Below are positions 2,611 through 38,664 of a DNA stretch of 38,664 bases, piece by piece. The notes under the pieces are model-generated. The model was not told the DNA's origin and did not search any database. It saw nothing but the letters and a program-made list of their open reading frames with translations. A program made the translations under genes and the position numbers. How positions within the stretch are numbered: position 1 is the first letter of the stretch; every line of letters starts with the position of its first letter. The stretch is from a virus. The stretch covers positions 1 through 38,664 of the IMG/VR virus record IMGVR_UViG_3300034107_000516; one strand, given 5' to 3'.

Positions 2611-3015
2611 ATGACGGATTCTTGGATTGTTTGCACTGATTTGGATATTGCGGCTGCATTTGGGACCATCGGCGTCCCAATGCGGCCAGACGTGCAGTTT
2701 GTGGCGGAAAGCGGCAAAGAGCACGTGTTCATGTATTTGGCGACCGAGAGTGTCACGAATCCCAACTTTAAGACGGGAGCGTTGATGAAGATGCTCAAGG
2801 ATGGACGGCTAGAGAAAGAAGATCCAGAGCACCCGCTGCTTTATGCGATTACTGCCGTCAAAAACCGGCACGCCATCACAAAGGCAGTCAGAGACACGGA
2901 GCGGCTAGTGCTGATCAACGTCAAAGGTAGCAAACGCACGGCCTACGTGCGGGAAAATATCACAGGCGACGGGCTTGCAATGGCGGAGAGATTCTTGCAT
3001 ACTGGGCGACTATGA
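2611..3015 (+). CDS. unknown tail-cluster protein
   Basis: A 134-aa soluble protein of mixed alpha/beta character. It contains an acidic/basic helix (LMKMLKDGRLEKEDPEHPL) and a C-terminal segment with several arginines (TAYVRENITGDGLAMAERFL). It lies between the putative tube gene and the chaperone gene, and its stop overlaps the next start (ATGA, 3012-3015). I do not recognise the family. The position suits a tail-assembly accessory protein or a companion of the chaperone. Confidence 0.4.
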   Translation: MTDSWIVCTDLDIAAAFGTIGVPMRPDVQFVAESGKEHVFMYLATESVTNPNFKTGALMKMLKDGRLEKEDPEHPLLYAITAVKNRHAITKAVRDTERLVLINVKGSKRTAYVRENITGDGLAMAERFLHTGRL

Positions 3016-18592: not shown

Positions 18593-18952
18593 ATGAAGCA
18601 CTACGCAATTACGATGAAAATGACCAGCGGCGCCGAGATCCGGCTGGTCTACAAAGCACTGTCAGAGCGATCGGCAGTCGCAGCCGCACACCGCAAGCTG
18701 GACTTTCAAGAGCTGATCAAGGTCGAACAGGTCGAGCAGCCAACGGACATCATAAAGACCAACCGCCGCTTTTGGGTCATTCAGTGTAAGGACATGCACG
18801 GTAGCAAGGTGGAGTTGTACTCGACCAGTCCGAATCAGAACACAGTCCGCAACAAGATGCTGAGCCATCCCAAGTGCGAAAGCATCATCCGCATTGATGA
18901 GGTTTGCGAGAGCGAATATCTAAAGCGCAGTGCTAAGAAAACTTTGGTCTAA
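18593..18952 (+). CDS. two-module protein related to its neighbour
   Basis: A 119-aa protein. The N-terminal half (1-50) and C-terminal half (58-110, from RFWVIQCKDMHGSKVELYST through VRNKMLSH to SIIRIDEV) have the same strand-strand-helix-strand plan as the 54-aa protein upstream. It is thus an internal duplication, three copies of one module across two genes. The fold could resemble small RNA- or DNA-binding domains, but this is speculative. The leader ACGAACACCACT has no Shine-Dalgarno sequence. The next 303 bases carry no convincing gene. Confidence 0.5.
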   Translation: MKHYAITMKMTSGAEIRLVYKALSERSAVAAAHRKLDFQELIKVEQVEQPTDIIKTNRRFWVIQCKDMHGSKVELYSTSPNQNTVRNKMLSHPKCESIIRIDEVCESEYLKRSAKKTLV

Positions 18953-19063
18953 TCGGCGAGAGGACCTTAACGCCAAGGGGGAAGATCAACCTCCTATATT
19001 GAGAGCGACCCGGCGCTCTGGCTATCCGCCGACCGGGAATAATTTTGGGAACGCTTGGAATTT

Positions 19064-19204
19064 GGCAGGGCAAGGCGCGGCTCGGCGTGGCGGGGCTCGG
19101 CTCGGCGTGGCATGGCTGGGCTTGGCTTGGCAAGGCATGGATTATGGCAGGGCGGGGCCGGGCTTGGCCCGGCAAGGCTCGGCCCGGCTTGGCAAGAGCA
19201 CGGC
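19064..19204 (+). repeat. GGC pentanucleotide array (25 GGC triplets at exact 5-bp spacing)
   Basis: GGC occurs at 19064, 19069, 19074 and so on to 19134 (15 in phase). After one imperfect unit (GGA at 19139) and a 2-base shift it resumes at 19146, 19151 and so on to 19191 (10 in phase), with one last at 19202. Flanking bases vary, so the unit is NGGCN. It occupies much of the 303-base gap 18953-19255, in which I see no credible gene. Upstream in the same gap is a small hairpin (AGAGCG/CGCTCT near 19002-19019). Within the array, 19157-19173 forms a 7-bp hairpin. Function unknown. Confidence 0.9.
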
Positions 19205-19255
19205 AAGGAACAAGGGCGGGCACATCCGCAAGAACAACAAAACAACAACAACAAC

Positions 19256-19474
19256 ATGGACAGCGAATCACTACATTCCAACGCACTTATGAACTATGCC
19301 GGGCTTTTGTACTCGGCCTACATGCGCGAAGCACGCGCGCACCACAACATGACCACGCCAACCTGGGCGGATTTCGTTTGCGATCCGCTCAACAAGATTA
19401 GCGTCTTTTGCTGGGTCGAGGTGGCACGGGTTGCACTGAAGATCGAAACGGAGGTGCGAGATGCGCAGTTATGA
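19256..19474 (+). CDS. small unknown early protein
   Basis: A 72-aa protein starting MDSESLHSNALMNYAGLLYS. It is mainly helical with one hydrophobic stretch (ISVFCWVEVARVALKI). The frame stays open through the GGC array upstream, but the translation there is low-complexity, so the ATG at 19256 after an AAC-repeat leader is preferred. That leader is one of the clearest C/A-only leaders in the genome. It overlaps the next gene by ATGA. Confidence 0.5.
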   Translation: MDSESLHSNALMNYAGLLYSAYMREARAHHNMTTPTWADFVCDPLNKISVFCWVEVARVALKIETEVRDAQL

Positions 19475-37801: not shown

Positions 37802-38664
37802 ATGCCACAAGCCAATCTTCTCGACATTGCAAAGCTCAACGGCTCCGACACCATTGTCGGGCTGATTGAAGAAACGCTGACCTACGCTCCCGAGGTTCAG
37901 ATCATGCCAGCGCGCACCATTCGCGGCACCTCGTACAAGATCGCATCGCGCGTCACGTATCCCGGTGTTGGCTTTCGCGCCGCCAACGAAGGCTCGACCC
38001 CGACGAAATCGGAGTTCGAGAGCCAGCTCATTGAGTGCTATATCCTCAGCGGCGCCGTTCAGGCCGACGTTGCGGTGGCTCGCGCTTATGAGGACGGTGA
38101 ACAGGCTTGGAAAGACGTTGAGTCTGTCGGCGTCATGCGCCAAGCGATGATTGAGCTGGGCTCACAAGTCATCTACGGCACCAGCGTTGACTCCAAAGGC
38201 TTCCCCGGCTTGCAGGCGATTCATACCGCCTTCAACGCTGGATTGGTTGTGGACGCTGGCGGAACCACCGGTGGAACCGCTTCCTCGGTTTACGGCATCA
38301 ACACCGACACCCAGGGCGTTCAACTCGTGTTCGGCGCTGGCACTACTTTCGAGCTTGGTGAATGGCGTATCGAAAACGTGGGCACCTCATCGGTGTATCC
38401 TGCGCACGTTGCCAACTTGACCGCGTGGGTCGGGATGCAGGTCGGCAGCAAGTACAGCGTTGGCCGCCTCAAAGATGCGACCGCTGAGTCGGGCGCCGGC
38501 GTCACCGATGCCAAACTAGCTGAGTTGCTCAGTAAATACCCAGTCGGCTACCGTCCGAATTACTGGCTCATGAACCGCCGGTCCGCTTACCAGCTCCAAG
38601 TGAGTCGGTCCGCTTCCAGCGTTCAGAACGGTGTCAAAACCTCAAGCGGTTCTGAGATCTTTGC
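37802..38664 (+). CDS. major capsid protein, N-terminal part (HK97 fold), continues at base 1
   Basis: Codons 1-287 of the 313-aa major capsid protein, MPQANLLDIAKLNGSDTIVG. The long N-arm, E-loop-like segment (APEVQIMPARTIRGTSYKI), A-domain strands and spine-helix-like region (EDGEQAWKDVESVGVMRQAM) fit the HK97 capsid fold. It lacks the delta-domain scaffold of HK97 itself, consistent with a separate scaffold gene. The leader (AACAACTTTCTTCTAAGACC) has no Shine-Dalgarno sequence. Confidence 0.95.
   Translation, partial: MPQANLLDIAKLNGSDTIVGLIEETLTYAPEVQIMPARTIRGTSYKIASRVTYPGVGFRAANEGSTPTKSEFESQLIECYILSGAVQADVAVARAYEDGEQAWKDVESVGVMRQAMIELGSQVIYGTSVDSKGFPGLQAIHTAFNAGLVVDAGGTTGGTASSVYGINTDTQGVQLVFGAGTTFELGEWRIENVGTSSVYPAHVANLTAWVGMQVGSKYSVGRLKDATAESGAGVTDAKLAELLSKYPVGYRPNYWLMNRRSAYQLQVSRSASSVQNGVKTSSGSEIF
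38538..38664. repeat. terminal direct repeat, right copy
   Basis: Identical to bases 1-127 (checked base by base). See the left copy; together they indicate a circular unit of 38,537 bp rather than a cut inside unique sequence. Confidence 0.97.

Follow-up and report, generated by a model that had tools for sequence, protein, structure and literature searches.

The array of GGC triplets at positions 19064–19204 of a viral DNA of 38,664 nucleotides (IMG/VR record IMGVR_UViG_3300034107_000516, the whole of which is called the window here) is very probably a vrRNA array with two guides that belongs to a VIPR system of type II, the vipr and vap genes of which are gone from this phage. The type of guide array is already known and it is the orphan state that is unusual. 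VIPR, a CRISPR-like phage weapon, was described only in 2026, and the family definition used here rests on one preprint (PMC13142463). Such a system comprises the phage RAMP protein Vipr together with vrRNAs of 9–16 YNNGG repeats; these RNAs are about 100 nt long, are bound by Vipr and end in a constant, structured 3′ tail. Every constant triplet of the vrRNA is described there as bound by one Vipr subunit and every NN as pairing with DNA, and the vrRNAs are described as reading foreign double-stranded DNA via these NN pairs with a one-base skip. In the window, Vipr subunits would occupy the constant GGC triplets, and the NN pairs would jointly spell a DNA target with one base skipped per pair.

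Format of the array

On the plus strand GGC recurs with a period of five in 15 units from position 19064 and in ten units from position 19146. Recounting confirmed the coordinates, the exact 5-bp spacing and the division into 15 + 10 units with a 2-base slip as given in the sequence-only reading. All 25 cores are intact (75 of 75 core letters are G, G and C), the spacer pairs use all four bases in 11 different dinucleotides and no pentamer unit is copied within the array; the statement that this is not a simple repeat and that the GGC core alone is fixed was correct. The slip itself is a break two bases longer than a unit. A 7-nt separator of the form GGAWTNT precedes guide 1 (GGAATTT), guide 2 (GGATTAT) and most guides of the sibling phages described below. 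In 200 Markov-shuffled windows the longest GGC run with period five had four units, and it had five units when the local G-rich 141 bp were shuffled 5000 times. The phase is therefore better than in shuffled sequence, as the earlier interpretation had required, and the array is far beyond chance. No second array of comparable size occurs elsewhere in the window.

The array is intergenic, as had been noted, and lies between two ORFs of the same strand. The full feature exceeds the span 19064–19204, since a leader and a tail belong to it (Table 1). The strand asymmetry at the array, with a G-rich plus strand, was seen again. The proposed 7-bp hairpin is one possible fold, yet the array region as such folds no better than shuffled sequences (z = -1.0). 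A search of Rfam gave no match for the array, and a consensus search revealed neither a promoter nor a terminator nearby. The 3′ end of the window array is common to the last guide of three siblings (L255, L267 and L256), whereas sibling guides located upstream of vipr carry a 5-bp hairpin of other sequence (GCTGG-...-CCAGC) compared with 4 bp in the window. These 3′ hairpins exceed shuffled sequences in stability only modestly (z from -1.2 to -2). We take the constant 3′ end with its hairpin as the putative 3′ tail of the vrRNA.

Table 1. Parts of the guide array locus and its flanking genes (positions in the window)
Feature	Position	Strand	Remarks
Upstream flanking gene, 119 aa, no assigned function	18593–18952	+	protein 97% identical in L255 and L256; site marker
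Leader, non-coding	18990–19063	+	precedes guide array; ends in first separator GGAATTT (19057–19063)
Guide 1 (vrRNA repeat tract)	19064–19138	+	15 GGCNN units
NN order of guide 1			AG AA GC TC GT GG TC TC GT AT TG TT TT AA AT
Separator GGATTAT ("2-base slip")	19139–19145	+	class GGATTTT / GGAATAT / GGAATCT / GGAATTT preceding other sibling guides
Guide 2	19146–19195	+	10 GGCNN units
NN order of guide 2			AG GG CG TT CC AA TC CC TT AA
3′ end	19196–19229	+	GAGCAC GGCAA GGAACAAGG and small hairpin GCGG-GCACAT-CCGC (19216–19229)
Downstream flanking gene, 72 aa, no assigned function	19256–19474	+	follows the last guide in each of the four phages with an array or a remnant

Assignment to VIPR and distribution of related arrays

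Tandem GGY/NN units, 9–16 per tract and with hypervariable NN, characterize vrRNA repeats in the preprint, and the window displays exactly this arrangement with 15 and 10 units. The earlier reading was also right in considering a structured or protein-bound RNA as a possibility. The wider scan that had been suggested was also productive. Searching IMG/VR for arrays of seven units yielded at least 120 stretches, and similar arrays were found in at least 100 viral contigs. Those listed are mostly diverse-NN arrays with up to 29 units per run, on contigs with 39–76% G+C. When species genomes of bacteria and archaea (about 85,000) were scanned for 12 units, the matches listed included about eight loci in which NN is diverse. 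Most of these cellular matches consist of low-diversity or perfect repeats, often from Actinobacteria, and were set aside. Among the matches listed the element looks mainly viral, and a mobile pentamer repeat of the host, as formerly considered, does not fit with related arrays that sit in viral contigs.

An all-against-all comparison of the ORFs from 129 array loci revealed as dominant neighbour a protein of about 200 aa, the family of which is encoded near 88 of the loci examined. It corresponds to PHROG 4652 of unassigned function and has no Pfam match. The profile of this family matches PDB entry 36pp ("SUSP1 Vipr protein") with E = 4.5e-47. Its member in L255 matches the SUSP1 vipr product (phiSUSP1 ALH47069) with E = 2e-18, and the vap gene of L255 matches SUSP1 vap1 with E = 2e-11. 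In the AlphaFold2 model of L255 Vipr (mean pLDDT 90) the predicted fold resembles Cas7-like subunits of type VII and type III CRISPR systems (Foldseek E = 5e-6), and in the aligned C-terminal G-rich motif G193, G197, R202 and G212 are invariant. A RAMP fold is marked by an RRM core and a G-loop; homology with SUSP1 Vipr and the predicted RAMP/Cas7-like fold identify the neighbour family as Vipr. The SUSP1 locus itself carries the expected GGT arrays. Of 328 arrays located no more than 3 kb from a Vipr gene, 321 have the same orientation as that gene. Where arrays follow vipr, the first of them starts within about 60 nt of the vipr stop codon in about half of the cases.

The site in sibling phages

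Four siblings could be compared with the window at this site, L255 and L256 being reached via the upstream flanking gene and L267 and L270 via another gene. Repeating the search with the upstream flanking gene returned L255 and L256 again and no others. Between the same flanking genes L255 and L267 carry the leader, the upstream guide or guides, vipr (222 aa), a vap1 homologue and five downstream guides. Their Vipr proteins are 100% identical at a dS of 0.22, whereas their guides have no NN string in common. Between the leader and the 3′ end the window contains only two guides in about 130 bp compared with 1.6 kb in L255 and L267. In L256 the end of the leader is gone and only one guide of eight units is left, two of them without GGC, and L270 has no array at the site. 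These five phages form a series from the full system to the empty site. The leader is almost invariant in the window, L255 and L267, and in L256 up to about position 19040; in contrast, synonymous sites near the leader differ by 23–50%.

It had been proposed to ask whether the array is conserved in relatives while its flanking bases vary. The second part held, since the NN strings of the window guides differ from those of all siblings, but occupancy of the site itself varies. Absence in close relatives, formerly regarded as decisive against the element, is uninformative here because the site is occupied differently among these relatives, by the complete system in some, by a single remnant guide in another, and not at all in a further one.

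Absence of Vipr and completeness of the genome

Three profile searches of the window detected no Vipr, although a very divergent form could escape them. They used PHROG 4652, a profile built here for the family and run with filters off, and a profile from an alignment of 30 sequences, which recovers with E below 1e-57 the Viprs of L255, L267 and SUSP1. A homologue of the L255 vap was likewise not found in the window. Neither vipr nor vap was detected in the genome that carries the guides, in contrast with L255 and L267 where vipr is present at the same site. An exact direct terminal repeat of 127 bp (positions 1–127 and 38538–38664, inside the capsid gene) indicates that the window is probably a complete circular assembly, though cut in the middle of a gene. 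A Sak4-like annealing protein, a primase, a helicase, a terminase and a portal protein are encoded in it. The terminase has its best match among isolates in Verrucomicrobia phage P8625 (24%) and matches of 35% in genomes that belong to the same phylum as a Lentisphaerae MAG, which makes Verrucomicrobiota a plausible host group.

A second contig (L133; 38,159 bp with a 114-bp terminal repeat) contains a GGCNN array of 16 units at 2923–3002 (reverse-complement locus coordinates) behind an HNH-like endonuclease gene. It apparently represents another complete phage genome with an array and without a detected Vipr, while the other array contigs without Vipr are likely fragments. GGCNN arrays were also observed between structural or other genes on contigs in which no Vipr was found (L075 10573–10838, L102 1908–1947 and L064 3618–3667), and in such cases the genes for vrRNA and Vipr may lie far apart.

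Search for guide targets

With the one-base skip applied, the target read by guide 1 would comprise 30 specified bases and that of guide 2 would comprise 20. For neither guide did IMG/VR, the sibling genomes or 388 bacterial genomes drawn from the phylum of the Lentisphaerae MAG reveal a target above chance. The IMG/VR queries comprised units 2–10, 4–12 and 7–15 of guide 1 and units 1–9 of guide 2, and the chance expectation is about one to two matches per scan according to our own estimate of the size of the collection. Partial matches were therefore rejected. Two related contigs (L261 7627–7652 and L262 246–271) agree with 18 of 18 bases of guide 1 units 7–15 but with only one of the remaining 12, and a 352-kb contig (L263 9418–9443) agrees with 19 of 20 bases of guide 2, which is about the chance level. 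A cross-match of 271 guides against the array loci with 0–3 skipped bases gave no excess over shuffled guides in this small and mixed set.

Origin and possible role of the orphan guides

The likeliest and simplest history would be a recombination between the upstream and downstream guide clusters, with loss of vipr and vap. Two intact guides would have been left behind between the leader and the 3′ end known from the siblings. Guide 1 exceeds most sibling guides in length and may have arisen by the joining. Without its own Vipr the phage cannot use its guides alone. If transcribed, as we infer, they would either be a recent relic or be loaded onto a Vipr from another element in the same cell.

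Whether the guides are now useless and will decay as in L256 appears to us an evenly balanced question. Such an inert relic of a recent loss of vipr and vap is consistent with the missing Vipr, with the absence of a target, with the further collapsed site of L256 and with the empty site of L270. However, guides persist in both vipr-less siblings and the window array is at least as regular as those of the Vipr-bearing siblings (0 of 25 irregular cores compared with about 7 of 107 units). These intact cores show no decay but prove no selection. As a loss before the split from L256 (dS about 0.3) would predict many core changes, the relic would have to be young. It is also possible, though rather less than probable in our judgement, that the guides still work in trans and are loaded onto the Vipr of a co-infecting or resident sibling, which they would redirect or titrate as decoys. 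Intact guides with a conserved leader and 3′ end in a phage without vipr point in this direction, as do L133 and the decoy RNAs of solitary CRISPR repeats known in phages (PMC10651486), but a recent deletion explains the same picture. The more general proposal that orphan vrRNA arrays are kept after the loss of vipr because their RNAs load onto a competitor's Vipr, either as decoys and thus as an RNA anti-VIPR or as redirecting guides, is put forward only tentatively and we rather doubt it. If true, arrays-only loci would be a counter-weapon against VIPR or a parasite of it.

Very improbable are the readings as replication origin, R-loop site, DNA-binding array with half-turn spacing or simple repeat expansion, some of which had been offered initially. 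The G-rich strand asymmetry would suit them, but related arrays are strand-locked to vipr, the NN turn over around a fixed core, no unit has been copied, and neither a special fold nor an Rfam match was found. Nothing supports an R-loop replication start, and for half-turn DNA binding the strand-locking and the vrRNA format speak instead for guides. A triplet every 5 nt in RNA is also known from the (G/U)AGNN repeats bound by TRAP. The triplet differs from that of the window, relatives encode a RAMP protein next to their arrays, and a TRAP-like RNA-binding ring was dropped with the recognition of this neighbour as Vipr.

Comparison with known systems

The closest described relative is the type II VIPR of Escherichia phage SUSP1 (PMC13142463, PDB 36pp), which shares with the window the tandem GGY/NN repeats, present in the window as tracts of 10 and 15 units; homologues of its vipr and vap1 are encoded by L255 and L267 at the same site. 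In contrast with SUSP1, vipr and vap are missing from the window, its guides are joined head to tail via the 7-nt GGAWTNT whereas those of SUSP1 each have a long tail, and its core is GGC instead of mostly GGT. With CRISPR RNAs and Class 1 RAMP (Cas7) effectors the window has in common a guide tract in which positions that are not read recur at regular intervals, and the sibling Viprs share a Cas7-like fold as suggested by structure comparison. Unlike CRISPR, the guide information is split into dinucleotides. A CRISPR array is marked by identical repeats of 20–40 bp that alternate with unique spacers and lie beside cas genes; the window has no repeats of this type, and no cas genes were found among the ORFs and families examined. 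Racr RNAs act as anti-CRISPR decoys against CRISPR-Cas (PMC10651486), and by analogy the window could encode a phage-borne guide-like RNA without effector as a possible decoy. It would mimic VIPR guides instead of CRISPR repeats and any decoy activity is putative.

A single site thus presents, among five related phages, the full system with identical Vipr but entirely different guides, an array lacking its protein, one guide in decay and an empty site. This series bears on the speed of guide turnover and on the route of protein loss, and it makes testable whether guides without Vipr are relics, borrowed guides or decoys. At least 120 array loci can also serve as the start of a catalogue of VIPR systems from uncultivated phages.

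Further features of array loci

Adjacent to many Viprs a protein of roughly 160 aa with an FEWDD..YR motif is encoded (PHROG 15946, unassigned), for example in L118 (172–654, reverse-strand reading), L128, L021 and L125 (10913–11434), and it is a candidate accessory (vap) protein. In L117 (468–957) about 89 units are packed in half a kilobase with the recurring NN string CT TC AT AG, which looks like the outcome of tandem duplication of a single guide segment.
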